Shown here in pieces: positions 21,595-64,000 of a stretch of DNA of 64,000 nucleotides. The position numbers were made by a program, and so were the translations under genes. The DNA is from Pseudarthrobacter sp. MM222 (GTDB lineage Bacteria; Actinomycetota; Actinomycetes; Actinomycetales; Micrococcaceae): positions 930,001 through 994,000 of the forward strand of contig NZ_OX352321.1 in assembly GCF_947090775.1 (NCBI RefSeq), read 5' to 3'. The notes beneath the pieces are model-generated. The model was not told the DNA's origin. It ran no database searches and saw nothing but the letters and a program-made list of their open reading frames with translations. The first letter of the stretch is position 1, and each line of letters opens with the position of its first letter.

Positions 21595-22644
21595 CTAGCG
21601 GAGCAGGAGCAAGTAATACTGCCGCAGGACATGCGAGCAGGAAGGGTGTCTGAGCTTCTTCAGCGCCGCGGCCTCGATCTGGCGTACGCGTTCGCGCGGC
21701 ATGCCGCACGCCTTCCCGACAGCCTCCAAGGTGTTCTCTTTACCGCCCGTCATGCCGAAACGCATCGCTATAACGCCTGCTTCCAGCTCTTCGAGTGAGT
21801 CGAGTACGGCATGTACCCGCTCCTTCAACTGTCGATGGAAGAGTGGATCCGTGGCGTCGAACTCAAAGGGATCCAACAACTGTTCGGCCAGCGCTTCGGA
21901 GCCGCCCCTACCGTCGGGCACTAGGAAGCTCAGCGAATATGTCGGCTTGTCCAAGGTCAGCAGGTAGTTGATCTTGTCGACGGAATAACCCGTCAGCTGG
22001 CTAAGATCCTCTATGCTGCAGACGGGCCCCGCGATCTCGGCTGTCCGCTGTGCTGACCGGACCTTCTGCAACTGCTCGATGACGTTAACCGGCAGCCGGA
22101 TAAGACGGGCTTGGTTAGCCAGCGCCCGGGTGATGGCTCGCCGGATGCAAAACGTAGCGTAGGTGGAGAATCTGAAACCCTTGGCGAAATCAAACTTGTA
22201 GACGGCCTCGTGCAGTCCCAAGTTTCCTTCCTGAATCAAGTCCAGGAGCTCCAGGCCCCCGTGGGTGTAGTGCTTGGCGATCGACACCACTAGCCGGAGG
22301 TTAGCGGTGAGCAGCACGTCCGCGGCACGCTGCCCCAGAAGGACGATGGTCCGGAGTTCTCCTCTGTCCCGTTCAGGCCGCGAAATTTCCTTGCCCAGGA
22401 GTTGTTCCGCGAAGAGCCCTGCCTCGATCTCCTGCGCCAGCTCAACTTCCTGCTCGGCAGTGAGCAAGTCGAATTGACGCAGCAGGCGCAGGTAGTCCGC
22501 GAGGGCGTTGTCCGTGAAGCCTTCGGTGCCGGCGCGCTGCTCCCGCCACTCGGCGTCATCCGGCTCAGATGATTCAGGGATCGGGGCGGCTGCTGCAGGC
22601 AGGGAAGCCTTACTGTCGATTGCCTCGCGGATCGGGTCGGCCAT
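21595..22644 (-). CDS. RpoD-type sigma-70 factor, stand-alone paralogue with altered region 2.3
   Basis: 349 aa. Regions 1.2 (TDNALADYLRLL, LLTAEQEVELAQEIEAG), 2 (NLRLVVSIAKHY, LDLIQEGNLGL, KGFRFSTYAT), 3 and 4 (PRERVRQIEAAALKKL) are all present, so it is a group 1/2-like sigma. At residues 165-166 the nearly invariant Trp-Trp pair of region 2.3 is Phe-Cys (STYATFCIRRAITR). In E. coli sigma70 the equivalent Trp433/434 help open the -10 element. It is a close paralogue of the sigma half of the fusion gene at 61163-63694 and shares its leader and GGGGGATGAA start context. Region 1.1 is absent. Confidence 0.92.
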   Translation of the reverse strand: MADPIREAIDSKASLPAAAAPIPESSEPDDAEWREQRAGTEGFTDNALADYLRLLRQFDLLTAEQEVELAQEIEAGLFAEQLLGKEISRPERDRGELRTIVLLGQRAADVLLTANLRLVVSIAKHYTHGGLELLDLIQEGNLGLHEAVYKFDFAKGFRFSTYATFCIRRAITRALANQARLIRLPVNVIEQLQKVRSAQRTAEIAGPVCSIEDLSQLTGYSVDKINYLLTLDKPTYSLSFLVPDGRGGSEALAEQLLDPFEFDATDPLFHRQLKERVHAVLDSLEELEAGVIAMRFGMTGGKENTLEAVGKACGMPRERVRQIEAAALKKLRHPSCSHVLRQYYLLLLR

Positions 22645-49786: not shown

Positions 49787-52700
49787 CTAGACCTCGCTGA
49801 TCTCGTAGACCCGGCCTAGAGCCGGAAAATGAATTAGCGTCCGCAGGACCGGCTTTCCGGTCGCGGCGAGAACCGCATTGCGGTACGCCGCCATCTGGCC
49901 CAGATACTTCTCGCGAACGTGGGTTTCTGGATCGCTTCCCGGGTAGGTTTTGTGGTCTACCAGGACGAAGCCATCCGGGCCTTCCAAAAGCAGGTCGATC
50001 CAGCCCTCCATCACCTGGTGGTCCGGTCGCCAACCGATTGCAGCTTCCCGGTGGCGTATCCACTGCGGAAACTCTGACTCAAGATAAGACTCGAAACGTT
50101 CCCCGGAAGTGATCAACAGCGAAGCATCAACCGTGGCCCCGACTTGCCACCGTCCTACGATCCGCTCCGCCAGATCGCGCCGCTCGGGCGGGTTGAGCGC
50201 GGAAAACTGCGTCCCCAAGTAGGCATGCACCGCGCTGCCGACCGCGCCCCAGTCATCGGAACCATGATCGGCAAGCCGTGAACCCAGCTCGGCCACAGCG
50301 GTGACATCGGCGTCGAGTCCTGAAGAGTCCATGGATGAGGCGGCGAAGCGGGCTGGCAATGTGTCAGTCGGTAAGGGATCAGAAAGCGTGTCCGCAAAGC
50401 GCAGCTGCCAGGTCGCCGCTGGGGGAAGGGCGTCTACAGGCGCTAGCTCCTCAACGAATGCGGGAAAGCCCTCGTTGTCTGCTACTTGGATAACGCCCAC
50501 CGGGCTGTGATCGTCCTGTTTTGTCCAAGACACCAAGGATGGAATGCCCAGATTGTTCAGTAGATCCGGTTTGCTGCTTTTGGCGGTCAGGACAGTGGTC
50601 TCGACCGCCCGGGTCATGCCGACGTACATAAGGCGTGACATGTTGCGGCGGTCGCGTTCCCGCGCCCGTTCCGCCACGTCGCTATTCCTACCCTTTGCAT
50701 CCAGGGGGGATCCGCCGTACGGGAATGGGCTTGGCCAGAACCGGATCCATCGGCCCGCAAGCGGCTGTGACAGATCGAAGCTGCCCTGCTGCTCAACGGC
50801 GGCACCGAACGCTGCGAGCCGCAGGTCCTTGTCCAGCCCCTCCATCACCACCACGGGCCATTCAAGCCCCTTGGCCTTGTGGTAGGTGAGGACGTTGACC
50901 ACGTCGTCCCCGGAATTTTCAGCTGATTGTTGCTCCTCACTGCCGAAAAAGGCCAGGAAGCCGCGCAACGTGGCCGGGGAGCGGAGCGCCAAGCAGCGCT
51001 CGTAATATGTGTTGATTCCACCGCGGACGGCGTCTAGGTTCCTGAGCCGAGTGGCAGGAGAAGACCAGCTGCTGATCAGTCGGGGTAGGCCAAGGACACC
51101 GGTCACCGCGTCGAAGACTTCGGTGGGAGTAGCCCCGACCGCACGTTTGCGAAGGCCGTCAAGCGCAGTGACCAACGGGTCGGCATTCCACGACTCCAGC
51201 ACGGCGGCGGCATCTGGAGCAGCAAGCAGCTGCTGTTGCCAGGTGGAGTGAGCGGAGTGGCCGGGATGGAGTGCCACCAGCTCGGCGAGGGCAACAGTGT
51301 CATAGCCGTCAGCGACGAACGCCATGCCTGCCCGTGCCAGCTGCACCTCCCTGGCAGCGGCTAGCTTACGAGGGTTGCGGCTTGCCCGGATACCCAGTGC
51401 ATCGAGTGCGGCGGCGAGAGATTCCACGTCCGCGTTTGACCGGGCAAGGATGGCGACGTCGCCGGCTCGCAGGTCAGGACGACGGCCCAGCAGGGTCGCA
51501 ATGCCTGCTGCAGTGGCTTTAAGCCGGTCGCCGTCGTTGGACTGGGGCCGGATCCAGCCTTCGAGCGTGCCTGCGGACCAATCCGCGTGTGCAGCCGGAA
51601 GCGTCAAATGGACGGTCTCGGGCGCCATGCCGTGTTCTTCGAACACCGGCTCAAATACGGCGTTGCTCAGGTTCACCACGGCCTGGTGGGACCGCCAGGT
51701 TTCGGACAGCTGTTCCCGGTGGCTGACCTTTGCAACCACGGCCTCCATGAGCTCGGGGTCGGTGCCGCGGAACTCGTAGATGGCCTGCTTGGGGTCGCCC
51801 ACCCATACGGCCTTGTCCACGAGCTGGGTGAGCTGCAGGAAGAGTTCAAGCTGCAGTGGGCTGGTGTCTTGGAACTCGTCCACGACGAGAAACCTCACTC
51901 GACCTGGAAACGAGCGGCGGAAGGCAGCGTTGTTGCGTGCCAGTTCCAGGACAAGGGTCTCTTGGTCCACGAAATCCATGAGGCCATGGAGCCGTTTGAA
52001 TTCGGAGTAGGCCGTGAGGCACTCGGCAGCGCACGTAAAGATAGACCGGATGTATTGCTCAAGGTCGTGGTGGAAAGCGGGGTTTGAGAGCAGCCCCGCC
52101 TTGATCGCGTCAGTCGCGGGTGAGAAGAGACTCTTGACGGCGGCCGGAGCCGCGGACCCCACCACTCCGCGCCAGTCCTCCCAAGAAATGTTTTCGATCT
52201 CCCCCATGGAGGCAACCTTGTGCAAGATTTTTGGCACGTGCTCCGTAAAGGATGCCGTAGTGACGGTTACAGTTTTGCCGGCAGGCGTTTTGCCGTCCCT
52301 CGCCGTTGCCTCAAGGTCGGGCACGCTGGCGCGAAGGTCCCGCAGCCATAGCTCCCTCTCGTCCGTGCCTGGGTTATCGAGGAGCTCGCGGAAACCTGTC
52401 CAGGAACGCTCTGCGCAGGCTGCCAGTTCTTCGGCTCCGAGCAGGTTCGTTCGGGCAGCATCCACGATGGCCCTGACCATCTCCTGCCAAGTTTTGGCAT
52501 CCCGTGCACCATTGCCGTCGGTGCCCATGCGCTGAGCGATGGGGAGGATAACGGAGGCGTGCTCAGCCAGAACCTCGTCGGCGGCGAGGTTAAAGATACT
52601 GGCGAGCTGTTCCTCCCCGATGACTTCCAACGCAGGCGACAGGCCTGCGTCGATGGCGTGTTCCTGAAGCAACTGACCGCAGACACTGTTCACTGTTCCG

Positions 52701-52963
52701 ATAAGGCTGGCCGGAAGCTGCTGGGAGGCGAGCCGAAGCGCGGCGGCAGCATCGGCGCCGTCCTCAGTTTCCGCCTGTTCCAGGAGCCTGGCGGCAATTC
52801 GCTCGCGGAGCTCATCTGCCGCCTTCTTGGTGAAAGTGGTGGCCATGATGGCGCCGGAAGGTAGGCCGGCTGCGATCTGCTCCACGATCTTGCCCGTCAG
52901 CGTGTAGGTTTTCCCGGTACCGGCGCTCGCCGAGACCATTGTGACATTGTCCAGCAGGTTCAC
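49787..52963 (-). CDS. AddA-like UvrD/Rep helicase with C-terminal PD-(D/E)XK nuclease
   Basis: 1058 aa. SF1A helicase motifs: VSASAGTGKTYTLTG (Walker A), VVDEFQDTSPLQLELFL (motif II), VGDPKQAIYEFRG (III), NVLTYHKAKGLEWPVVV (V) and MYVGMTRAVETTVL (VI). The C-terminal nuclease has IDLLLEGPDGFVLVDHKTY and QMAAYRNAV, the RecB-like catalytic core. The GTG at 52963 overlaps the stop of the AddB-like gene (GTGA), so the two are coupled and probably form a heterodimer that unwinds and cuts DNA ends. Actinobacteria usually carry AdnAB for recombination, so this pair may be a specialised or defence-linked system. Confidence 0.9.
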   Translation of the reverse strand: MNLLDNVTMVSASAGTGKTYTLTGKIVEQIAAGLPSGAIMATTFTKKAADELRERIAARLLEQAETEDGADAAAALRLASQQLPASLIGTVNSVCGQLLQEHAIDAGLSPALEVIGEEQLASIFNLAADEVLAEHASVILPIAQRMGTDGNGARDAKTWQEMVRAIVDAARTNLLGAEELAACAERSWTGFRELLDNPGTDERELWLRDLRASVPDLEATARDGKTPAGKTVTVTTASFTEHVPKILHKVASMGEIENISWEDWRGVVGSAAPAAVKSLFSPATDAIKAGLLSNPAFHHDLEQYIRSIFTCAAECLTAYSEFKRLHGLMDFVDQETLVLELARNNAAFRRSFPGRVRFLVVDEFQDTSPLQLELFLQLTQLVDKAVWVGDPKQAIYEFRGTDPELMEAVVAKVSHREQLSETWRSHQAVVNLSNAVFEPVFEEHGMAPETVHLTLPAAHADWSAGTLEGWIRPQSNDGDRLKATAAGIATLLGRRPDLRAGDVAILARSNADVESLAAALDALGIRASRNPRKLAAAREVQLARAGMAFVADGYDTVALAELVALHPGHSAHSTWQQQLLAAPDAAAVLESWNADPLVTALDGLRKRAVGATPTEVFDAVTGVLGLPRLISSWSSPATRLRNLDAVRGGINTYYERCLALRSPATLRGFLAFFGSEEQQSAENSGDDVVNVLTYHKAKGLEWPVVVMEGLDKDLRLAAFGAAVEQQGSFDLSQPLAGRWIRFWPSPFPYGGSPLDAKGRNSDVAERARERDRRNMSRLMYVGMTRAVETTVLTAKSSKPDLLNNLGIPSLVSWTKQDDHSPVGVIQVADNEGFPAFVEELAPVDALPPAATWQLRFADTLSDPLPTDTLPARFAASSMDSSGLDADVTAVAELGSRLADHGSDDWGAVGSAVHAYLGTQFSALNPPERRDLAERIVGRWQVGATVDASLLITSGERFESYLESEFPQWIRHREAAIGWRPDHQVMEGWIDLLLEGPDGFVLVDHKTYPGSDPETHVREKYLGQMAAYRNAVLAATGKPVLRTLIHFPALGRVYEISEV

Positions 52964-55599
52964 GAGTAGTCCCCTTTGAGTCCGCATAGAGTTCCAAAAT
53001 GGCAGTAACGGCAATTAGGCTGCCGGTGCAGCCGCTCATTCGCAGCGGCGAGCGCGGCGGCATCGGGCTCACCTCCGGCCAACGCGGCTTCGGCCGGTTG
53101 CGCTGCAGTGATCCGTCCGGCCAGTACTTCCTCGACCGTGAATTCCACCGAGCGTACGGCGCGGCGCCAGAGCTCTGGCGTGTCCTGTGCGGACTGCAAG
53201 GCACCGCCAAATTCGGGGTGTGAGGACGCGAAGGTCCCCTGTTTGAGCAGGAAATACGCTGCCGGAGAATCGGGAGGCACGTCGCCACTGTTGAGAGCCC
53301 ACTGGTACAGCGCCAGCTGGAGAGCTTCCCCCCGCTGCACGTCCGCGCGGAGATACTTCTCGGTGTTGCTCCATTTGAGGTCTATGACGGCCGTCCGGCC
53401 GTCAGCATCGATGCCCACCGCGTCGGCACGGCCCTCGACCGCAACAGTGAGTTCAGACCCGCCCACGGTGAACGTCAAGTCTTTACTGAAACCCTTCTCC
53501 ATGTCCTGCAGAACCACGCCGCCGTGCTGCAGCTGTGTGAAGAATGTCATGACGGTGGTCTCGATGGTGGCCCGGACACCCGCAAGCCGGTGCAGCTGGC
53601 CGGGCAGGAGCAGCTCGGAAGCCATCTGGGGTAAGAGCGAGTCAATGACGGCACTCACCTCGCTGAGTTCCGGTACCGCCCGATGTTGCTGCCGCAGTTG
53701 GTCGTGAAGCACTTCGACGATTTTATGGGCGAAGATTCCGAGCATCTGGTTGCCGGCGGGCACATCGGCGGCAGCGGGTACACGAAGGTGCGACTTATGT
53801 TTGAGCACCCAGGCGAGGGAACAGCCGAGCAACGTTGACAGCTGGGTGTAGGAGAGGCGCTTGGGGATGAGCGCGGGGTTCGGAGCTACCTCGTGGACGG
53901 GAGGTGGCGCCGTGGGGCGGTGTTGAGGAACGGGAATTAGCTGTGCTTGCCGGCTCGCAAGAGACCAGCGGCCGCTGGTCTTGGTCAGTTCGGCGGGAGT
54001 GACAGTCAACGCGGCGAGGCGATTCGCCAGGGACTCCGATTCTGCCAGCGCGCTCGGCTGGGCGGCCACGAGCGCCTCCAAGAGCGGGTTTCCTGCCTGT
54101 CGTTCGCCGTCGCGCTGTTGGATCTGGATGAGAACCAGATTTCTAGTCCGGGTTGACCCGGCAAGCGTCTGGGTTACCTCGAGAGCGCTCAATTGTTCGG
54201 GGGTCGGAAGATGCGCACCCACTTGTGCGAGGGCATCGACGTCATGGGCGTCCCACCGGCGGATGCGCTGCATGCCCGCGCCCTGGAAACCCCACCACAG
54301 CACCTGATCGACGTCGTCGGTGAGCTCCGCCAAGTGGCTGAGGCGCAGCCAAGGTGAGGCTTCCGCTGGGACCAAGGACCCGGAGGAGGGAGTGATCACT
54401 GAGTCGATGATTCGGCGCAGGTCCCGGCGAGACACTCGGGGGAGCGGATTGATGAGTGCAAGAATCCGTTGCAGCAGCGCCGCCGTGCCCTTGGCGGTCT
54501 CGTCGATGGCTACGCGGGCATGCAGCCGGGCCGCCAGCCATTCCGCCCGCTCAGCCAGTTGGAGGCCGCTAACATTCCGTTCTTCCACAACCAGACCGGC
54601 GTTGAAAACGTCGTCCAGAACCCCGGCAATGTCCGGACCCAGGTGCTCGTCGCCTTCGATCTCTGCAATAGCCGCATTCCAGGCGTCACCTCCGATTCCC
54701 GGCTCCGCCCTGAGCGCGCCCAGCAAGTATCGCGCGGCGCCCCGGCGGACCGGTGAACCGGGGAGGCTGAGCAGTTCGGCGAGGAGCTGCACGTTCACCG
54801 GTGACCAGATCACTTCGAAAAACAACGGAATTAACTGCTCCTGCGGCCGCCACACGGATGGGGCTCCGACGCCGACTGCCGGCAGCCCATGGTCGGAGAG
54901 GTAGCTGTCCAGGAGGCCGCTGCTGTCGGAGCAGACGACGGCGGTCCTGGTGTTGTCGCCCGCCGCTAGCCACCTGGCGGTTACTTCTGCGGCGTCCCAT
55001 TCGGTTTCGGCTGTCAGGATTGTCAGCTTGGGAGGCGCTGCGGCTGGGATTGCTTCGCTGATGTCGACGCCCCGGTTGCGGAGCTTTCCAATGACAACCT
55101 GCCAGACCTGCGGAAAACTGCGCTCCGGGTGCTGGAGTATGAGCTCGTCGATGCCAAGCGGCAGCGGCGAGTCAAGCGCTACCGCAAGCTCCGCGATGTC
55201 ATCGGCCAAGGATGGCGCGAGCTGTCCGGGCGCTATCTCCGCGGCGGCAAGTGTCTGAAGCAAAGGGGACGGAGCAGCAGCATCCAACCGCTGGACGGGG
55301 AGCACGCCGTTCCAGCCATTTGCGACGGCGTCGTCGCGGGCGGCAAGCAGCTCCTCGGCCGTGGACCAAGGGTCAACCTGGAACGACTCGTGGAACCAGG
55401 CGCCGGGGGAGTAAATGGACTGAAGACGGCCCAAGTACTGGCTGACGCGTTCGGCATGCCCCGTCTCCGGCCGGGTGATGCCCAGGCGCGTCTGCAGCAG
55501 GGCGGTGAAGTTTTTCCGGCCCACCCGGATCTGATTGAGGCCAGGCCGCGTGTAGCTCCAAGGTGCCCGGTCCAGATGCCATCCGAACTCAATTCTCAT
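52960..55599 (-). CDS. AddB-like PD-(D/E)XK nuclease
   Basis: 879 aa. The C-terminal part has the RecB-family nuclease core (VEGRADAVGIDADGRTAVID, then LKW and EALQLALYQW) and ends in CRYCHFGTLC; with the upstream cysteine in STLLGCSLAW this could hold an AddB-type iron-sulphur cluster. The N-terminal two thirds is an inactivated helicase-like region, lacking a Walker A motif. The ATG at 55599 is preceded by an unusual GGGGG ribosome site. It is the upstream partner of the AddA-like helicase. Confidence 0.85.
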   Translation of the reverse strand: MRIEFGWHLDRAPWSYTRPGLNQIRVGRKNFTALLQTRLGITRPETGHAERVSQYLGRLQSIYSPGAWFHESFQVDPWSTAEELLAARDDAVANGWNGVLPVQRLDAAAPSPLLQTLAAAEIAPGQLAPSLADDIAELAVALDSPLPLGIDELILQHPERSFPQVWQVVIGKLRNRGVDISEAIPAAAPPKLTILTAETEWDAAEVTARWLAAGDNTRTAVVCSDSSGLLDSYLSDHGLPAVGVGAPSVWRPQEQLIPLFFEVIWSPVNVQLLAELLSLPGSPVRRGAARYLLGALRAEPGIGGDAWNAAIAEIEGDEHLGPDIAGVLDDVFNAGLVVEERNVSGLQLAERAEWLAARLHARVAIDETAKGTAALLQRILALINPLPRVSRRDLRRIIDSVITPSSGSLVPAEASPWLRLSHLAELTDDVDQVLWWGFQGAGMQRIRRWDAHDVDALAQVGAHLPTPEQLSALEVTQTLAGSTRTRNLVLIQIQQRDGERQAGNPLLEALVAAQPSALAESESLANRLAALTVTPAELTKTSGRWSLASRQAQLIPVPQHRPTAPPPVHEVAPNPALIPKRLSYTQLSTLLGCSLAWVLKHKSHLRVPAAADVPAGNQMLGIFAHKIVEVLHDQLRQQHRAVPELSEVSAVIDSLLPQMASELLLPGQLHRLAGVRATIETTVMTFFTQLQHGGVVLQDMEKGFSKDLTFTVGGSELTVAVEGRADAVGIDADGRTAVIDLKWSNTEKYLRADVQRGEALQLALYQWALNSGDVPPDSPAAYFLLKQGTFASSHPEFGGALQSAQDTPELWRRAVRSVEFTVEEVLAGRITAAQPAEAALAGGEPDAAALAAANERLHRQPNCRYCHFGTLCGLKGDYS

Positions 55600-55745: not shown

Positions 55746-56504
55746 TCACTGCAAAGACAAGGGATCAAGGCGCCTTGGCTGATACTCACGCGGTTGCCGA
55801 TTTAGCCAATAGTTGGCTGGGCTCCCGGCACGAGACATTCGGTCATCTTGCGAAGTCCAGATGATGATGTCCAGCAGCCGGAGATCCGTGGCTTTGCCAA
55901 TATCGGGTACCTCACGGGCCACTTGGTCACCGATCCGGGTAAGCTCGCATTGTTGGTGACGGAGGATGCTCCGAAGTGTCAAAAGCGTTTTCTCGATACG
56001 CTCCCACCGCGGTTCCGCCCCGAAACGGAAGCCGTCTCTCTTGAAGCCCATGGCCATCGCCACGTGGCCGTCGAGAACAGGTACGGCGTCCGGCCTGTAA
56101 AGGGCAAGCATTTTGGTGACCTTGGGTGCCCACACCCCGTGGAAGCCGGACCGGCAAAGAAGAGTTAGGCCTTTCACGTCTTCATCGTCCATTTGGGCGA
56201 GGTCCTTAGCGGACAGGGCGTTGAGCCGTTGCGCCAGTTCCGACCGAACATCGTGCGTGAAGCGTGCGATGTCTGCCGCGGACAATCGCCCAGCCAACGT
56301 GGTTGCCCACAACAGTGACCACGGAGCGATCTCCTTGAAGTGGCCACCTTGCCTAGCTACCGATCCAAGCAAGTCGTAGGTATGCCAGCCGCTCCGAGGA
56401 TGGGTGCAGTAGCCGACGACTCTTGCCGCAATGTCTTGGATTGGTCGGACACCTATCCCTCCGGACATGCCGGGGGAGAGATCCATCTGAAAGGGCGTGC
56501 TCAT
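55746..56504 (-). CDS. Uncharacterised protein, DUF6308-like
   Basis: 252 aa from the ATG at 56504 (GAAAGAAG upstream). Helical, with WSLLWATTLAGRLSAADI, KGLTLLCRSGFHGVWAPKV and ALYRPDAVPVLDGHVAMAM; the last two recall helix-hairpin-helix glycosylase-type folds and the actinobacterial DUF6308 family. No catalytic residues can be assigned. It stands alone between the nuclease pair and the NERD helicase, on the same strand. Confidence 0.6.
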   Translation of the reverse strand: MSTPFQMDLSPGMSGGIGVRPIQDIAARVVGYCTHPRSGWHTYDLLGSVARQGGHFKEIAPWSLLWATTLAGRLSAADIARFTHDVRSELAQRLNALSAKDLAQMDDEDVKGLTLLCRSGFHGVWAPKVTKMLALYRPDAVPVLDGHVAMAMGFKRDGFRFGAEPRWERIEKTLLTLRSILRHQQCELTRIGDQVAREVPDIGKATDLRLLDIIIWTSQDDRMSRAGSPANYWLNRQPREYQPRRLDPLSLQ

Positions 56505-56611: not shown

Positions 56612-58297
56612 CTAATCTTCAGTTAGTATCGGCGTCCATGCCTGGGACCGTGACAATGCTGCCTTTAGTTCCCGCCCGCCCGCTTCCTCCAGTAACTCGG
56701 AATCACCAACTACCACTAGCAGGCTCCGGGCACGGGACAACCCGACGTACAGCTGTTCGGGTGCCCGGCCCATGTCCTTGAACCCGTTGACGCAAAGAAC
56801 AACGACGGACCGTTCCAGGCCTTTGAAGCCCAGCACGTGGCCGTAGAACTCACTCTCGTTGGCATGGAAGTCCCGCCAGTACTCCTCCGTGGCGCCGCGC
56901 TCGAAGTAGTCCAGATGGATGGGGTGTCGGTCCTTGGTGGTGAGGAGCGCGATTTGATTGTTCGCCCAGCCCTCGTCGATCAAGGCGTTCAAACAGTCTT
57001 CAGCGACGTCGAGCGACTCCTCCGCAGGGCAGTCGACGAACCGTACAGGCAGGCCGGTGCTGCCCCTGGGCGTGAAATGTTCGCCGGCGAAAGGCTTGAA
57101 TGTCTCAGCGATCTTGCGGGTGTTGCGGAGGTTCTCGTCGATGTGGATGGGCACGAACGTGGCCGTCGGACCATTGGTGAGGTCCGCCGTCGCACCTCCC
57201 CAACGTTGGTAGACGTCCTGGCGGTCATCCATGAAGGCGTACACCTCGCCCGCGGCGGGATCAGTAGTGCAGGCGAGAAGCGCCTCCCACCACAGTGGCG
57301 CGAAGTCCTGCGCTTCGTCGACGATGACGGCGTCCAAGCGTTCGTGGGGCTCCATCCCGGCAGCTAGTTCCCTCAAGAGGCGGGGCATCTCGACGTCGAA
57401 GTAGTCCTGACCCGAACCGTCCGGGACCCCGAGCCCGCGCACGTACTCGTGGAACTCGCCGGTGAATACGGGCTTGGCTTGGCGCCACGTTGCAACCTGG
57501 TCCTGAAGGTACTGTCCCAGGCCTTTGTTGTAGCAGAAGAGCCCGACCCGTTTGCCCTGTTTGCTGAGCAGTTTGGCCTTTTCGACCGCGAGCCAGGTCT
57601 TTCCGCTGCCGGCGCCGCCGGTGAAGCGGATACGGGGGAGCGACCGGGTTGCCTGAAGCAGCACGGACTGCCGTTCGGTGAGATGGTCCTGTGCGGCCTC
57701 ATCCTCCTGTGCTGTGGTGGAGGGTACGACGGCGGTGTCCAGGTCTCCGCTCAGCCTGCGGACGATACGTTCCAGGAAAACCGGGGCCAGAGGGGCGGCG
57801 CCGCCGCCTTCGTTTTCGATCGCTTGGCGCACGAGCTCGGCGGGTGCCTTGCTTTCCGTTTGGTCAAGGATGAGTGACCGAGGGCAGCCGGCCATGGTCC
57901 AGTCACCCGGCACGTCGGTATACGGCAAGCTGACCATGTAGACGCAGCGGCTGCTCAGGCGGGAACCGAGCTGGTTTTCAAGCCAGTTCTTGAGCGCATG
58001 AAGTGAGCTTTGGGACTGCGCCACGGGGCTTTGGATCTTGCGCCTCTGGCTCCGGTCCGACTGGTACCACTGCCCGTCGGCGATGCTGACCTGGCCACCC
58101 TTGACCTCGATCGCGGCCATGCCAACGCCGGGCCAGAGGACCAGCAGGTCGATCTCGTATTCGTTCCGGCCGTCGCGGACATGGACGGAGTGGGCGAGGA
58201 CGCAGTCATCGGGAAGGCTGCTCTTCAGTGCCGTCCAGACGGCCTTTTCCGCCAGCTGTCCCTCACCGAACTCCGGTTCTGCCGGAATGCACCTCAT
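56612..58297 (-). CDS. NERD-domain UvrD-type helicase
   Basis: 561 aa. The N terminus (residues about 5-125) is a NERD nuclease-related domain: LAHSVHVRDGRNEYEIDLLV and AIEVKGGQVSI provide the D..ExK core. Then SF1 helicase motifs: RFTGGAGSGKTWLAVEKA (Walker A), VIVDEAQDFAPLWWEALL (II), FMDDRQDVYQRWGG (III) and LYVGLSRARSLLVVVGD (VI). NERD helicases are known from mobile elements and defence loci. The ATG at 58297 follows GGGGGCAACA; a TTG at 58345 gives a longer form. Confidence 0.88.
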   Translation of the reverse strand: MRCIPAEPEFGEGQLAEKAVWTALKSSLPDDCVLAHSVHVRDGRNEYEIDLLVLWPGVGMAAIEVKGGQVSIADGQWYQSDRSQRRKIQSPVAQSQSSLHALKNWLENQLGSRLSSRCVYMVSLPYTDVPGDWTMAGCPRSLILDQTESKAPAELVRQAIENEGGGAAPLAPVFLERIVRRLSGDLDTAVVPSTTAQEDEAAQDHLTERQSVLLQATRSLPRIRFTGGAGSGKTWLAVEKAKLLSKQGKRVGLFCYNKGLGQYLQDQVATWRQAKPVFTGEFHEYVRGLGVPDGSGQDYFDVEMPRLLRELAAGMEPHERLDAVIVDEAQDFAPLWWEALLACTTDPAAGEVYAFMDDRQDVYQRWGGATADLTNGPTATFVPIHIDENLRNTRKIAETFKPFAGEHFTPRGSTGLPVRFVDCPAEESLDVAEDCLNALIDEGWANNQIALLTTKDRHPIHLDYFERGATEEYWRDFHANESEFYGHVLGFKGLERSVVVLCVNGFKDMGRAPEQLYVGLSRARSLLVVVGDSELLEEAGGRELKAALSRSQAWTPILTED

Positions 58298-58445: not shown

Positions 58446-59960
58446 TCAGCTCGCATTCCGCAGCGTTTGGACTGCTCCGCTCACCACATCGTCAAGTGTG
58501 ACGCCCCCATCCGGACCGGGCCCGGTTGGAAATTCGCCGGTATGCCATTGAAGCTTGCTGGCGTCCTCGCAGCCCCGTCCAAAGCGCAAGCCGTCGAGTA
58601 TCTGGTGCCCCGCTTCGATGTGCGGGACTCCGTCCTTGTACCAGTTCGGAAAATCGTTGTTGGGAGCAGACCAGCCATTCCCGGTCAGGTAGCCGGCATC
58701 TAGGGGCCACGTGTCGGCGGGTAGGTACTTCTCGGACACGATTTCGAACCAGACCCCATCGGCGCTGGGCACGGCCTGGGCGTACGGCGTCAGTCCTTCA
58801 GTGTCGTTATCGTACTGAATGCTCAGGAATGAGTTCCACGGCATGTTTGCCAGAACCTCGCTGATCAGTTCGCCCGCTTTCGCCCAACCTTCCTGGACGT
58901 CGTTCTGGGCTCTGATGTGGTTGACAAGGCCGTCGTACTCATCCTCGATTTCCGACGGCATTACGGCGCCGATCACCGACTCCCAGGCGCCGAAGTGCCT
59001 TCTAATGGCGACCACGGACGGGCGATGGCGTCCGGCGGCCATTTCGACAGTCACCCAACTGTCGTAGCTCGCCACGTCTTTTGGGGAGCCGAAGTAGCGG
59101 TACTCATCTCTAAATCTGCGGGCCGCCTCAGCAAATTCAGAGGCGCTGAAGCTAACTGGGTCTAACGTCGGCTGGAGCCCGGCGGAAGCCAACGCGGTGT
59201 CCCAGAACCCTAGGCCCAAGTGGCGTCGCACCGTGCCTGCGGGTACCGGCCAAAGGTCTCCGCGACCGGGCCGTTCGTCTCCAAGGTCCGCCGAAATTGC
59301 CTCCGCTATCTCCTCGTAGTCTGAGTACGAGATTCCGGCGTCATCGCCGGCGCGGATGGCCTGCGCTGTTGTCTCAATGACCGCCAGGATTTCGGCTAAC
59401 TGGCCGTAGGGGCGGCTCGGACCCAGGAAGCTCCGGATCTCTTCGACCGATGAGAGCGGCGTCATCCCCAGAGCCATTTCATAATCAGGTTGAAATCCCC
59501 GGTGGCGGCCTACCACATAGAGCAAGCTGAGCATATCGATGGGTGGAGCAAACTCCACCTCACCCCTTTGTTGTTGGTCGGCGCGGTGCACGAGTTCCTT
59601 GAACATGTGCGTAGTCCGGAGCATTTCCTCGGCAATGTCGACGTCGACCGGTGCTCCGAGCGCGGCGAGGACCCTGGGTATATCCACGAAATCGATTCCG
59701 GCTCGGTCGAGCTGCTCGAAGCGTTCGCGCTCCTGGTAAAGGGCTGCCAACGTGGCATTGCATCGATCCCGGAGTGCCCTGGACCGCTGCTCCTCACCCC
59801 GGTCCGCGACCCGACTACCGAGGATGCGCAGAATCTCCCAGCTGCTCATTTTCGCGGCGTCCGCGATGCACCGCAGTGGATCCCCGGCCAGGAAGGATCT
59901 GGTCACCTGCCCAGTCACGTCGCGCTGGGGAACGTCAGCCTCGGAGGATGGTGTGCTCAC
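58446..59960 (-). CDS. HNR-repeat DNA-binding protein with C-terminal TY-Chap-like domain
   Basis: 504 aa from a GTG two bases after the upstream gene's stop. Residues 15-55 look like a helix-turn-helix (LRCIADAAKMSSWEILRILG). Residues 143-262 share a conserved block with the neighbouring protein (LSLLYVVGRHRGFQPDY, GFWDTALASAGL). Two homing-endonuclease-associated-repeat-like units lie at 237-262 (WPVPAGTVRRHLGLGFWD) and 312-333 (RPSVVAIRRHFGAWESVI). The C-terminal 125 residues (GVWFEIVSEKYLPAD, LTGNGWSAPNNDFPNWY) resemble TY-Chap/YbjN chaperone-like domains. No endonuclease motif is seen. Probably a DNA-binding or regulatory protein. Confidence 0.7.
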   Translation of the reverse strand: MSTPSSEADVPQRDVTGQVTRSFLAGDPLRCIADAAKMSSWEILRILGSRVADRGEEQRSRALRDRCNATLAALYQERERFEQLDRAGIDFVDIPRVLAALGAPVDVDIAEEMLRTTHMFKELVHRADQQQRGEVEFAPPIDMLSLLYVVGRHRGFQPDYEMALGMTPLSSVEEIRSFLGPSRPYGQLAEILAVIETTAQAIRAGDDAGISYSDYEEIAEAISADLGDERPGRGDLWPVPAGTVRRHLGLGFWDTALASAGLQPTLDPVSFSASEFAEAARRFRDEYRYFGSPKDVASYDSWVTVEMAAGRHRPSVVAIRRHFGAWESVIGAVMPSEIEDEYDGLVNHIRAQNDVQEGWAKAGELISEVLANMPWNSFLSIQYDNDTEGLTPYAQAVPSADGVWFEIVSEKYLPADTWPLDAGYLTGNGWSAPNNDFPNWYKDGVPHIEAGHQILDGLRFGRGCEDASKLQWHTGEFPTGPGPDGGVTLDDVVSGAVQTLRNAS

Positions 59961-59962
59961 GC

Positions 59963-61072
59963 TCAAAACCCCAGTGATTGTTGTGGCGGGTGGATCGCGC
60001 GCCGGACGGCGGGTGGCAAGCCGAGCACCAGCGCGCTTTGTCCGGTATCCTCTTCGAGCACGTCGTCCTCGTCCTCCTCCTCCGGAAGGATGACCTGCAT
60101 GGCGGAAGCCCAGCTGCCGTAGTGACGGATGATTTCCACCGCGGAAGGCCGGTCGTTCCTCATGGACGCTTCGGAGAAGACCCACCGGTCGTAGGTGGCA
60201 ATGCTCATGGGATGTTCAAAACCCATGCATTCCTCCGTGAAACCGTCGAGCGCATCAAAGAAGTCGTTGTCGGTAAATCTGGACTCGGAACCTGGCAGGC
60301 TCAGCCCGGCCGCCCGCAGTGCGGCGTCCCAGAAGCCATAACCGTAACGGCGTAGCAGTACGGATCCCGGCACCGGCCACTGGCCATCCGCGGCAACTCT
60401 GGTGTTTCCCAGGCGCGAAGAAACCGCCGCCGCCGTCTTCGTATAGTCCGCATAGGAGATGGCCCGCAATGCCCTGGCGCGGATGGCGAGCTTCGTAGTT
60501 TCCGCCACGGCGGCGAACTCCGCCAGGCGCCGCGGCGGAAAGCTGGGCTGCATGAGTGACCGAAGCGCGGCCAATTCCTCGATCGGCATGGTGCCGAGCG
60601 CCAGCTGATAGTCCGGTTCGATTCCGTGGTGTTTGCCCGCCACGTACAAGAGACTGAGCTTGTCGCCCAAGGTTCTTGGAGGCAGGGCCCTCTCCGTCCG
60701 CTCGGAAGCGACTCCGGGAATGTTCACGAGCTCGACGCCGACCTCCACGTCGATGGCCGTCTGCAGCGCTTTCAAGACCTTCGGCGTATCAGACCAGGCA
60801 ATCCCGGCGCCGGCCAGCCGGTACAACAGGACGCGGTTCTTGTAGAGAACCTCGTCCGTGGCCAGGCTCCGGCGTCTGACGGATCTCGCGCGCTGTAGCT
60901 CGTGGTGGCTGGCTGGTTGCGTGGCCAAGAAATTGCAGAGTTCGTCGACCGTGCAACCCAAATCGGCGGCGATGGCGCGGAGAGGTTCACCGGCCGCATA
61001 TGCGTCGTCCGCTGGTTCACTGCGCATGACGGCGTCACGCTGTTCCCGACTGAGTTCAGGAGCTGTAGTCAT
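59963..61072 (-). CDS. HNR-repeat DNA-binding protein, short paralogue
   Basis: 369 aa from the ATG at 61072 (AGGAA 9 bases upstream). An N-terminal helix-turn-helix (AGEPLRAIAADLGCTVDELC, residues 28-47) is followed by the block shared with its neighbour (LSLLYVAGKHHGIEPDYQLA, ISYADYTKTAAAVSS). Two HNR-like units occur at 231-256 (QWPVPGSVLLRRYGYGFWDA) and 307-329 (RPSAVEIIRHYGSWASAM). It ends in an acidic tail without the TY-Chap-like domain. The two HNR genes are almost contiguous and lie directly after the helicase-sigma gene (90 bases), suggesting one transcription unit. Confidence 0.72.
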   Translation of the reverse strand: MTTAPELSREQRDAVMRSEPADDAYAAGEPLRAIAADLGCTVDELCNFLATQPASHHELQRARSVRRRSLATDEVLYKNRVLLYRLAGAGIAWSDTPKVLKALQTAIDVEVGVELVNIPGVASERTERALPPRTLGDKLSLLYVAGKHHGIEPDYQLALGTMPIEELAALRSLMQPSFPPRRLAEFAAVAETTKLAIRARALRAISYADYTKTAAAVSSRLGNTRVAADGQWPVPGSVLLRRYGYGFWDAALRAAGLSLPGSESRFTDNDFFDALDGFTEECMGFEHPMSIATYDRWVFSEASMRNDRPSAVEIIRHYGSWASAMQVILPEEEDEDDVLEEDTGQSALVLGLPPAVRRAIHPPQQSLGF

Positions 61073-61162
61073 GGTCACATTCCTACCAGTAGTAGCCGAC
61101 ATTGCCCGGCAGTGATGATGTTTGGCCGCGCGGCCACGGCGCATTACAGCCGAAGACACCGC

Positions 61163-63694
61163 TTAGTCGCTCTCTGCAGTGGCCACTGCCGTCTCGGGTG
61201 TTTTCGAGTGCACCGAGTCGTAGCCGTCAAACATGAATTGTCGCAACACCTCGGATCGAGATGGATGGCAGAGCTTCTTCATCGTCTTTGCTTCGATCTG
61301 CCGGATGCGCTCCCGGGTGACGCCATACACCTGGCCGATTGCGTCCAAGGTCTTTTCCTGGCCATCGGTCATTCCGAAGCGCATCGCGATGATGCCGGCC
61401 TCCCGTTCCTCCAGTGTGTCCAGAACAGCATGCACCTGCTCTTTCATAAGTTGCTGAAAGAGCGAGTCCGTCACATCCAGGTCAAACGGATCGGCCAGCT
61501 GTTCGGCCAGCGCTTCGGAGCCTCCCCTGCCATCGGGCACTTGCATATCCAGCGAGTAGATCGCTTTGTCCAACGTCAGAAGATATTCGACCTTTTCGGT
61601 TGAACTGTCCGTGAGCTGGGCAAGATCTTCATTCGTGCACGAGGACCCATTCATTGCAGCAGTTCGTTGCGCCGACTGCAGCTTTTGGAGCTGCTCGACC
61701 ATGTGGACGGGCAAGCGGATAAGACGTGCCTGATCAGCCAAGGCCCTCGTGATGGCTTGGCGGATCCACCACGTCGCATAGGTGGAGAACTTGAAGCCTT
61801 TGGTGAAATCGAATTTGCAGACAGCCCTGTGCAGTCCCAAGTTGCCTTCCTGGATCAAGTCCAGGAAGGCAAGGCCCCTGTTGGAGTAGTGTTTGGCGAT
61901 CGAAACCACCAGTCGCAGGTTTGAGTTCAGCAGAGTGTCAGCCGCTCGTTTTCCCAGCAGAACGAGAAACTCAAGTTCACGGATTTCCCGTCGCGGGCGC
62001 GTCGAACCCTTATCGGCGAGGAGATGCTCCGCAAAAACCCCGGCCTCGATCTCCTGCGCCAGCTCCACTTCCTGCTCTGCCGTCAGCAATTCGTAGCGGC
62101 CAAGCCGCCGGAGGTAGTCCGCGACGGCGTCGTCGGTGACACTCTCGCTGCCGGCAAGCTGTTCAGGCCACTCATCGTCTTCCAAGTCGAAACCTACAGG
62201 CTTGGCATCATCTTCGGGTTCTTCAAGTGGCGGCTCGGGCAACGCCTGGGTTTGCTCCACAACAGCGATCGGATCTGCCTCAGCGATTGGCTGAAGCTCG
62301 GGTTTGGGCTCGGCCACGACGTGGTGGAGAAAGCTCCGCAACCGGTCCAAGTCGGTCCTGATGTCGAAGAACTCGACCTTGCGGGCGAACGGAAGCACCC
62401 GGCCCAGAAACTCTTCGCCCTGGACATTGGGGTCCTCGACCGTGTCTTTCGAGTACAGGACAACGAGACGCCCGACGCGACCGTCGGCCTTCTTGCGGAT
62501 GACGCGTCCCAGACGCTGGACCATCTGTCGCTGGCTGCGATTGGCCGCGACGATGATGCCGAGGTCAGCTTCCGGCACGTCGATGCCTTCATCGAGCAGT
62601 CTCGGCGCGGCCAGGATCTGCGAAGTACCGTTGCGGAATTCCTCCATGCCCTGCCGGCGTTCATCCTTGGCCATCCCGCTGAAGATCGCAGAAGCCTTGG
62701 AACCCATCGCCGTGTACAGCTCCTGGGCACGCCTCGCAGATTCTTGAGTTTGGGTGAACACCAGCGTGCCGCGAGACTGGTCGACTGTCTCCTTGAGGGC
62801 TGCCAAAGCGTGGTATTTGGTCCGGGCTTCTGCCAGCAAGGTGAGCCTGGACGCCATCGCCCGCATGTACTTTCGCGCAATCGTCGATTCCCGAGTGGTG
62901 GAGTCTGACCCGGCGAGGGAGGCGACTGCCGCAATGAACCGGTGGAACGGACGCCGGGGGATTCCGGCGTAGGTCTCCAGGTTGCGCGCCGCTTCCAGCA
63001 TTGTGTTCGAGAGATCGTCGTAGTTGATTCTCTCCGTCGGCGTGAGTTCAACACCGACGAGGGCGATGTCGAACGGTGCGATGACATTGTCTTTCAGCGC
63101 GCGGTCGTACCAAAGCTTGTAGACGACTCCGCCGAAATATGGCGACAAGACAGTCTCGTGCTCTCCGTCCGACCGCTCGTAGGTGGCGGTCAGTCCGAGC
63201 CGCCATGCGAATCCCTCTTGAAGAGCCCCTGTGAACATGGGAGCGGCGTAGCGGTGGCATTCGTCCGCGATGATTAGCCCGGCCTTGTGGCTCCGCAGTG
63301 TCTCGCGGTTGGACGCCGAGTGGACTATGGCCACCAGGATGTCCACCTGGTCAAGTGAATCTGTGCGACCATCGCCGAGCGCGCCCCGGCGGGCCTGGGG
63401 GAGGTCGCGCTGGATAGAGGACAGCCATTGACGCTGGAGCTCGGCGGTGGGGACGAGAATCAATACCTTGATTCCCTGGCGGACGGCTTCAAATGCAGCA
63501 GCGATCCCGACGCGGGTTTTGCCCGATCCGGTGACGGCCTCCACCACCCCACGCCGAGCATTCGAGTGCCAGGCCTTCAGCGCTTCCTGTTGCCACGAGT
63601 ACAAGAATGCGTAGTCGTAAGAAGTTGGAACAGAGGCGGCCGAGGCAGGCTCGGAGTCCGTCCCATTCATTACCTCCTGGATCAGGTCAGTCAT
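61163..63694 (-). CDS. XPB-like SF2 helicase fused to a complete RpoD-type sigma-70 factor
   Basis: 843 aa in one uninterrupted frame. Residues about 25-460 are an SF2 helicase: AVTGSGKTRVGIAA (motif I, residues 53-60), LVPTAELQRQW (Ia), IIADECHRYAAP (DECH box, 144-147), LGLTATYERSD (III), TLVFTQTQES (IV), LLDEGIDVPEADL (V) and QRLGRVIRKK (VI). An acidic Pro/Glu-rich linker (about 460-505) leads into a full sigma factor: region 1.2 LLTAEQEVELAQEIEAG, 2.1-2.4 NLRLVVSIAKHY to STYATWWIRQAITRALADQA with the Trp pair at 642-643, region 3, and 4.2 GVTRERIRQIEAKTMKKL. Both halves keep all key residues. The start at 63694 follows GGGGGATGAA, as in the stand-alone paralogue. Confidence 0.93.
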   Translation of the reverse strand: MTDLIQEVMNGTDSEPASAASVPTSYDYAFLYSWQQEALKAWHSNARRGVVEAVTGSGKTRVGIAAAFEAVRQGIKVLILVPTAELQRQWLSSIQRDLPQARRGALGDGRTDSLDQVDILVAIVHSASNRETLRSHKAGLIIADECHRYAAPMFTGALQEGFAWRLGLTATYERSDGEHETVLSPYFGGVVYKLWYDRALKDNVIAPFDIALVGVELTPTERINYDDLSNTMLEAARNLETYAGIPRRPFHRFIAAVASLAGSDSTTRESTIARKYMRAMASRLTLLAEARTKYHALAALKETVDQSRGTLVFTQTQESARRAQELYTAMGSKASAIFSGMAKDERRQGMEEFRNGTSQILAAPRLLDEGIDVPEADLGIIVAANRSQRQMVQRLGRVIRKKADGRVGRLVVLYSKDTVEDPNVQGEEFLGRVLPFARKVEFFDIRTDLDRLRSFLHHVVAEPKPELQPIAEADPIAVVEQTQALPEPPLEEPEDDAKPVGFDLEDDEWPEQLAGSESVTDDAVADYLRRLGRYELLTAEQEVELAQEIEAGVFAEHLLADKGSTRPRREIRELEFLVLLGKRAADTLLNSNLRLVVSIAKHYSNRGLAFLDLIQEGNLGLHRAVCKFDFTKGFKFSTYATWWIRQAITRALADQARLIRLPVHMVEQLQKLQSAQRTAAMNGSSCTNEDLAQLTDSSTEKVEYLLTLDKAIYSLDMQVPDGRGGSEALAEQLADPFDLDVTDSLFQQLMKEQVHAVLDTLEEREAGIIAMRFGMTDGQEKTLDAIGQVYGVTRERIRQIEAKTMKKLCHPSRSEVLRQFMFDGYDSVHSKTPETAVATAESD

Positions 63695-63755
63695 TTCATC
63701 CCCCATTTGGACTGTTCAAGCTCTTGAACGCAGACTACTTGGCCGGTGTGACACT
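63695..63755 (-). promoter_or_regulatory. Leader of the helicase-sigma gene, shared with the stand-alone sigma gene
   Basis: Almost identical to 22645-22704. It contains a perfect 14-base palindrome TTCAAGCTCTTGAA (63715-63728), one base off in the other copy, and a TAGTCT -10-like hexamer at 63732-63737 on the minus strand, overlapping the stop codon of the upstream phosphatase-like gene. A candidate common promoter/operator, possibly read by these sigma factors themselves. Confidence 0.7.
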
Positions 63756-64000
63756 ATTCACTCCGTTCGCCGGCACCGCGCCGAGCGACCGAAGAAACAG
63801 CGGGTTTGGGTTCGCTCCGGGCAGTACGCGCTTCACGTCCTCCAGTGCTTCCAGCGGCGTAATCCCGGCAACCTGCGCTCCATACAGCGCAGCCACTGTC
63901 GGCGTCCGTGACTCGGCCCGCACGCAGTGCAACAGCACCGTCCTGCCCTCCGAGCGGAAGTGTTCGACGGCGCCTGCCGCGTCTTGCAGCACGAACGCGG
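63735..64000 (-). CDS. Dual-specificity/tyrosine phosphatase-like protein, C-terminal part (runs off the right edge)
   Basis: The last 88 codons of a gene starting outside the window. LLHCVRAESRTPTVAALYG is the cysteine phosphatase P-loop (HCx5R) with its following helix; GITPLEALEDVKRVLP belongs to the usual closing helices. It would dephosphorylate protein or a small molecule. Its stop lies 41 bases upstream of the helicase-sigma start and within the shared leader, so co-transcription is possible. Confidence 0.82.
   Translation of the reverse strand, partial: AFVLQDAAGAVEHFRSEGRTVLLHCVRAESRTPTVAALYGAQVAGITPLEALEDVKRVLPGANPNPLFLRSLGAVPANGVNSVTPAK

Follow-up and report, generated by a model that had tools for sequence, protein, structure and literature searches.

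A gene joining an XPB-like helicase to a sigma-70 factor in Pseudarthrobacter and its island context

Bacterial sigma-70 factors are held to open promoters without ATP, whereas sigma-54 and RNA polymerase II (Pol II) need ATP-driven partners. RapA, Mfd and HelD are translocases bound to RNA polymerase; to our knowledge, no sigma factor contains any of them. The accessible text of PMC13024598 describes XPB in the Pol II system as reeling in downstream DNA. We analysed a 64,000-nucleotide stretch of the soil bacterium Pseudarthrobacter sp. MM222 (NZ_OX352321.1, positions 930,001 to 994,000 of the forward strand, or C1:930001-994000 of a 4.29 Mb genome; hereafter the window), in which one gene encodes both an XPB-like superfamily 2 (SF2) helicase and a sigma-70 factor. 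Comparison of homologues at the level of sequence established one conserved polypeptide with intact helicase motifs, housekeeping-type sigma residues and a non-RpoD sigma finger, patchily spread and accompanied by defence-type neighbours. In domain design, the fusion is new to the sigma-70 family. Literature searches returned no described helicase-sigma fusion among the matches listed, in agreement with a first-pass annotation, made from the DNA letters alone, that knew of no described system of this design.

The fusion gene and its conservation

The gene occupies 61163..63706 on the minus strand, which is a single open frame encoding 847 residues from the ATG at 63706 or 843 residues from a second ATG at 63694. 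The plus strand over 61163-63694 is interrupted by stops. The 843-codon frame of the first-pass annotation, given without its strand, therefore stands from ATG 63694 but lies on the minus strand and extends to 63706. GGGGGA is found directly 5' of the second ATG, which may be the true start of the fusion. The XPB-like SF2 helicase half (62303..63628, residues 27-468) contains the Walker A sequence GSGKT (63515..63529, residues 60-64), the motif II sequence DECH (63254..63265, residues 148-151) and the motif VI sequence QRLGRVIR (62495..62518, residues 397-404). Pfam matches above the curated cut-offs were obtained for ResIII (residues 35-178, E 1.9e-23) and Helicase_C (residues 304-405, E 6e-18), bearing out the description of a complete SF2 helicase. 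A disordered acidic linker follows (62147..62302, residues 469-520, with a predicted local distance difference test score (pLDDT) under 50), as had been proposed, and leads to a sigma-70 half spanning regions 1.2 to 4.2 (61229..62146, residues 521-826). Sigma-70 membership is given by Pfam matches to Sigma70_r1_2 (residues 526-559, E 2.5e-11), Sigma70_r2 (residues 592-661, E 1.7e-21) and Sigma70_r4 (residues 761-812, E 6.5e-15), all above curated cut-offs; the Sigma70_r3 match falls under its own. The promoter-melting Trp pair of region 2.3 (61766..61771, residues 646-647) and the -35 recognition helix of region 4.2 (61283..61318, residues 797-808) are both present. An AlphaFold2 model based on 46 sequences has a mean pLDDT of 81.6 and a predicted template-modelling score (pTM) of 0.53. 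Both halves are modelled confidently, while pLDDT is under 50 at residues 1-26, 469-520 and 827-847. Two confident halves, a linker of such low pLDDT and the pTM together indicate a flexible tether.

Homologues were collected by a protein search with 7,978 matches, the best 120 of which were listed, most of them spanning the whole query. Together with the loci and a second search, these gave 149 rows with both halves and hence at least 133 distinct fusions, distinctness being judged from 200 residues close to the C-terminus. All 133 are full-length and alignable. That both halves occur in one chain in 133 distinct homologues answers the possibility that homologues are always two separate genes and rules out an assembly or frame artefact; no stop or frameshift was found between the halves in the window copy. 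Nine checked helicase motif residues are intact in 132/133 fusions. By position, K63 of Walker A is present in 133/133, G62 and T64 in 132/133; in motif II, D148 and E149 are found in 133/133, C150 and H151 in 131/133; in motif VI, R404 occurs in 133/133 and R401 in 132/133. The sole row with a degenerate helicase, Walker A included, is L082.

The sigma half was compared at positions that we take to serve core binding, promoter melting and -35 reading (E. coli numbering), and these are retained, in support of the earlier view of a full sigma-70. The equivalents of Y430, W434, Q437, R441, R451, R584, E585 and R588 are each present in 133/133 fusions, that of H455 in 132/133 and that of W433 in 127/133. 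Among the core-binding positions, D403 is found in all 133 fusions, and Q406, E407 and N409 in 128/133 each. The sequence thus favours binding of the sigma half to host RNA polymerase. The linker is net acidic in 133/133 fusions, with a median length of 57 residues (range 27-84). In six pairs of close relatives, the ratio of nonsynonymous to synonymous substitution rates (dN/dS) was 0.03-0.06 for the helicase, 0.09-0.14 for the sigma half and 0.22-0.55 for the linker, values that place both halves under purifying selection in the pairs tested. Among the best 120 of 7,978 matches, database names given to the fusions nearly always refer to a sigma factor alone, which hides the helicase. One source gives four helicases in which Pfam sees no sigma domain (P0174, P0187, P0200 and P0214) the name 'RNA polymerase primary sigma factor', a label that has perhaps spread from the fusions. 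At the C-terminus of some fusions there is an additional domain: a helicase-associated (HA) domain in the copy on plasmid pACHL01 (L051:8250-11222) and a weak KOW motif in P0096.

Finger replacement, sigma exchange and helicase loss

The region 3.2 sigma finger of the window fusion, SLDMQVPDGRGGSEALAEQLAD (61490..61555, residues 718-739), differs from that of RpoD, which is two residues shorter: the RpoD loop SLHTPLGEDGDSEFGD is replaced by a loop of the type SLDxxVPDGxGG. With a loosely defined pattern, the window-type finger was recognised in 105/133 fusions, and the remaining 27 other than P0082 comprise ten near variants and 17 distant fusions with other loops, some shortened. The RpoD finger pattern matched 28/28 RpoD and a single fusion, P0082. 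As judged by these patterns, the RpoD finger has generally been lost, namely in 132/133 fusions, including the RpoD-derived L082, P0095 and P0096, and what has replaced it varies. The accessible text of PMC12445709 implicates the sigma finger in template pre-organisation, abortive initiation, pausing and escape.

Sigma trees were built with 56/133 fusions, and a helicase tree with the same 56 plus 45/72 helicase-only rows; both were quick searches with several long branches. A single sigma clade for all 56 sampled fusions was rejected (p 5e-33). P0095 and P0096 have helicases ~65% identical to those of other fusions, whereas their sigma halves are closer to RpoD (73-77% identity) than to the sigmas of fusions (55-59%). 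In these two and in L082, the helicase halves fall within the fusion family and the sigma halves are of RpoD origin. A single residue separates regions 1.2-3.1 of L082 from the RpoD of its own genome; the L082 finger, in contrast, is of the fusion type. By these comparisons, some fusions have exchanged their sigma half for RpoD, and a housekeeping sigma can apparently stand in. P0095 and P0096 are the cleanest case, since the L082 helicase is degenerate and P0082 comes from a metagenome-assembled genome (MAG).

The tree also places 11 stand-alone sigmas (a count that excludes L079, whose frame is a fusion) as one clade nested among the fusions. Keeping 52 main fusions apart from the stand-alone sigmas was rejected at p 0.016, a value that is not clean, four fusions having been dropped from the tested group after the tree was seen. 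In 7/11 stand-alone sigmas, the N-terminal peptide of the fusion runs directly into the end of the linker, as an internal deletion of the helicase would leave it; at most 5/2000 shuffles score as high for these seven, and the remaining four matches are not significant. From this sequence record, the stand-alone sigmas are taken to have arisen through helicase deletion. W434 is lost in 11/11 of them and W433 in 7/11; the melting residues are retained in the proteins that still have their helicase. One of the 11 is a second sigma of the window itself (21595-22644, minus strand), a stand-alone, helicase-deleted descendant of the fusion type with FC in place of the melting Trp pair. Five helicase-only rows sit among the fusions in the helicase tree, and two of these, P0144 and P0151, from contigs under 2 kb, may be cut fusions. 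An in-frame ATG within the linker is absent from 12/14 loci and present in 2/14, GTG and TTG not being judged.

Distribution and genomic surroundings

An unbroken frame matching both halves was found in 15/150 genomes of the genus, among them G106, which carries L082 with its degenerate helicase and RpoD-like sigma. Three further genomes hold partial copies: broken in G052, frameshifted inside the helicase in G128 and placed at a contig end in G047. Five show an additional, weaker match to the sigma only. In the G128 copy (C1:1437475-1439923, L050) the N-terminus is present in another frame, and in Arthrobacter sp. OVS8 (L061:10001-12541) the fusion is broken into several frames; the broken copies in OVS8 and G128 are either pseudogenes or sequencing errors. 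Searches at an E limit of 1e-108, which would miss distant forms, matched 11/295 genomes of the family (10 of these being fusions, in 5/32 genera), 6/297 genomes of the order (three from another family) and 2/396 genomes of the phylum, both of the window's genus. The search for the domain pair across actinobacterial genomes that the first-pass annotation had proposed thereby finds the fusion recurring in 5/32 genera of the family and, beyond it, in one other family of the order. Named relatives, among the matches listed, are mostly Arthrobacter and Pseudarthrobacter, and a single-sequence scan of genome contigs reached only 4 close relatives. Two fusions are carried on megaplasmids, pACHL01 and pYJN5-1. 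The distribution is patchy and accessory. A phage gene was considered and rejected: 0/47 viral-contig matches span both halves, and phage records all fall short of 80% query coverage.

The fusion lies 28 bp downstream of a minus-strand gene for a 505-residue ADP-ribosylglycohydrolase (ARG) with a DSP phosphatase domain, whose 3' end occupies 63735..64000 and which continues past the window; further upstream are ARPP-1 and then a divergent NrtR (Nudix-HTH). On the other side, all on the minus strand, are an HNH-repeat protein of 354 residues (59963..61027, Pfam match below cut-off, grouped with the adjacent TY-Chap3 gene), a predicted TY-Chap3 chaperone of 504 residues (58446..59960, Pfam E 5e-11), a 561-residue protein with a Pfam NERD domain and a superfamily 1 (SF1) helicase (56612..58297, PADLOC NERD-helicase models E 4e-26 and 2e-25), a DUF6308 protein (55746..56285, its frame reaching 56537), a PD-(D/E)XK nuclease protein of 854 residues (52960..55524) and a UvrD helicase with a PD-(D/E)XK nuclease of 1058 residues (49787..52963). 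The last two genes overlap by 4 bp, and we take their products to be AddB-like and AddA-like, respectively. PF03747, PF20208, NUDIX with NrtR_WHD, and TY-Chap3 are above cut-offs in this island; DSPc scores 28.3 bits, under its cut-off of 33.5. The island holds the defining parts of an ARG-centric system, namely ARG with an R-P phosphatase, ARPP, a Nudix-HTH regulator and a TY chaperone, and for such systems an anti-viral role is predicted in the accessible text of PMC9503650. The general use at difficult promoters that had been suggested for the fusion finds no support in these surroundings, which point instead to anti-phage islands.

Counting the window's own locus, 18 distinct loci encode the fusion or a close relative at 69-93% identity; the NERD-helicase gene lies nearby in 18/18 and the AddAB-like pair in 16/18. 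Among more distant fusions, genes picked from 4/10 loci gave a strong PADLOC match within ~6 kb (ZacC, PDC-S37/Hhe, DndH-like and mad3/mad8), and those picked from the remaining six gave none. At L054:7932-14897, a stand-alone sigma with no helicase lies 37 bp before an AddB-like/AddA-like pair that shares 44-46% identity with the pair of the window. A sigma region 4-like helix-turn-helix can stand at the start of proteins of the HNH-repeat/TY-Chap3 group, as in L139:6508-7464 and L137:6529-7485, which are related to 59963-61027 and 58446-59960; Sigma70_r4 scores 28.6 bits against a cut-off of 24.1 in L139.

Possible function and relation to known systems

We tentatively favour, at somewhat less than even probability, a reading of these sequences in which the fusion is a defence-associated, group-2-like sigma-70 that brings its own tethered XPB-type translocase for ATP-assisted initiation at ordinary promoters. 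The fusion would move as an optional module of anti-virus islands; its sigma half would bind host RNA polymerase and bring it to ordinary sigma-A promoters, where the tethered motor would act in cis on promoter DNA. Transcription of island and host genes could then be kept up or restarted once the standard holoenzyme has been modified or sequestered by a phage. Examples of such interference are ADP-ribosylation, for which the adjacent ARG system is the predicted means of reversal, and inhibitors that work via region 1.1. The island context suggests that the fusion is used during phage attack. In favour of this reading are the union of both halves in one chain across the 133 fusions with their invariant motif and sigma residues, the low dN/dS of both halves, the exchanges of the sigma half for RpoD, the retention of melting residues alongside an attached helicase, the near-complete loss of the RpoD-type finger, the fold match to XPB of a Pol II pre-initiation complex, the type of island and the co-occurrence with ARPP-1. 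A more specific version appears doubtful: that an XPB-type motor standing at the place of region 1.1 drives opening or escape in the manner of TFIIH with Pol II, yielding an emergency holoenzyme proof against phage inhibitors and modification.

The fusion tends to occur together with the island, ARPP-1 being present in 9/10 genomes with the fusion or a remnant vs 4/71 without (p 2.6e-8) and the NERD gene in 9/10 vs 7/71 (p 4e-7), the lone exception being the plasmid copy of G054; however, these p values are optimistic, as the 81 genomes are related and two of the ten positives hold a broken or cut copy. Several observations weigh against the favoured reading. The NERD gene in seven genomes without the fusion indicates that the island does not need it; no fusion half was seen around the NERD gene in the stretch read in these genomes, one of which has the gene near a contig end. 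The copies on pACHL01 and pYJN5-1 adjoin dnaE and other genes rather than known defence genes, and a PADLOC search with 10 genes taken from five further fusion loci gave no match. No consensus promoter was found in 60900-64000, where 0.6 would be expected. At the protein level, the finger is not uniform, given the other loops of 17 distant fusions, and W433 is absent from six fusions. The L082 swap may belong to a decaying gene, its Walker A being degenerate, and P0082 may be an assembly chimera. Finally, the helicase could act far from the promoter.

In an unlikely alternative, the sigma is a docking arm, taking the translocase and the island's NERD and AddAB-like nucleases to polymerase on foreign promoters, where phage DNA is stripped or cut while promoter opening remains ordinary. 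The company of these nuclease genes in close-relative loci, the helicase-less sigma of L054 placed 37 bp before a related nuclease pair, and the closeness of the helicase half to PbeA of a phosphorothioate defence system all speak for docking. Yet none of these nuclease genes is found in the stretch seen at the more distant loci L051, L072-L080 and L082, and docking alone does not explain the invariance of W434 and Q437. Less probable again is a sensor-switch, the translocase patrolling for phage-type or damaged DNA and gating the attached sigma for a small regulon, mainly the island. RIG-I, a helicase of the same fold, acts as a sensor, and the long disordered acidic linker of the model could let the helicase mask the sigma. 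The island moreover encodes a Nudix-HTH NrtR-type regulator, a type reported, in the accessible text of PMC9503650, to sense ADP-ribose. A private regulon is nevertheless not apparent, as the sigma residues are those that read housekeeping promoters, and 60900-64000 offers no promoter-like site.

Transcription-coupled repair, with a sigma-bound XPB-like enzyme opening damaged DNA where polymerases have stalled so that the AddAB-like nucleases can act, would suit the XPB-like fold and the repair-type neighbours; it is improbable, as the genome has a separate true XPB, the distribution is patchy and accessory, and sigma acts mainly at initiation. An accidental fusion of no special function, retained as two independent activities, might be read from the fast evolution of the linker and from the L061 and G128 copies, in several frames and frameshifted inside the helicase, respectively. 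It is highly improbable in view of 133 distinct fusions and of their spread to 5/32 genera of the family and to another family within the order, and the linkers of 12/14 loci, having no in-frame ATG, give no separate ATG-started sigma product there.

Should ATP-driven initiation by the defence-associated fusion prove true, it would be categorically new. A sigma-70 with a covalent XPB-type motor would break the division between ATP-free and ATP-driven initiation. The fusion would give a one-polypeptide model of translocase-assisted promoter opening and links the transcription machinery to anti-virus islands; the natural sigma swaps and helicase deletions constitute ready-made test pairs.

Among known helicases, the top match in a structure search with the helicase half was XPB within the Pol II pre-initiation complex, and an XPB-type helicase fold is common to the fusion and XPB/RAD25 (NF045503, archaeal XPBII and TFIIH XPB). 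The earlier description as XPB-like therefore holds for the fold and fails for XPB itself: the fusion scores 101.9 bits against the NF045503 cut-off of 610, whereas a separate XPB in the same genome scores 851 bits, ruling out orthology. The N-terminal XPB domain PF13625, present in the genome's XPB, has no Pfam match in the fusion, whose confident structure begins at ~residue 27, and the E of R-E-D is kept as E in 3/133 fusions, being A or S in 94. The best NCBIfam match of the helicase half is TIGR04095 and its best PADLOC match is PbeA (E 2.8e-61, profile 245-619 only), consistent with a helicase part related to those of phosphorothioate defence. PbeA has a PLD domain, according to the accessible text of PMC6459918, and lacks a sigma, in contrast to the fusion; with no Pfam match to an N-terminal PLD domain and the profile aligned from 245 only, PbeA membership was rejected.

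The sigma half is 52-56% identical over regions 1.2-4.2 to primary and group-2 sigma-70 factors (actinobacterial SigA/HrdB; top rows of the structure search) and has the same melting and -35 residues, with the helicase in place of their N-terminal part. Among the 25 of 91 families listed, every RpoD model scores under its cut-off (for example RpoD_Cterm, 283.6 vs 354), and a separate RpoD-type sigma is encoded elsewhere in the genome. MzaA, the sigma factor of the MZA defence system, likewise combines a sigma-70 with a long N-terminal part and a link to defence; only the sigma part of the fusion aligns with its model (profile 474-714, 317.2 bits vs 800), and membership was rejected. The island resembles the ARG-centric systems of PMC9503650, as described in its accessible text, in combining ARG with a DSP phosphatase, ARPP-1, Nudix-HTH NrtR, TY-Chap3, nuclease-fold and helicase genes; the word sigma is absent from the main text of that paper, and the fusion is an added, optional part. 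In its proposed role, the fusion would join RapA, Mfd and HelD as an ATP-driven enzyme acting on bacterial RNA polymerase.

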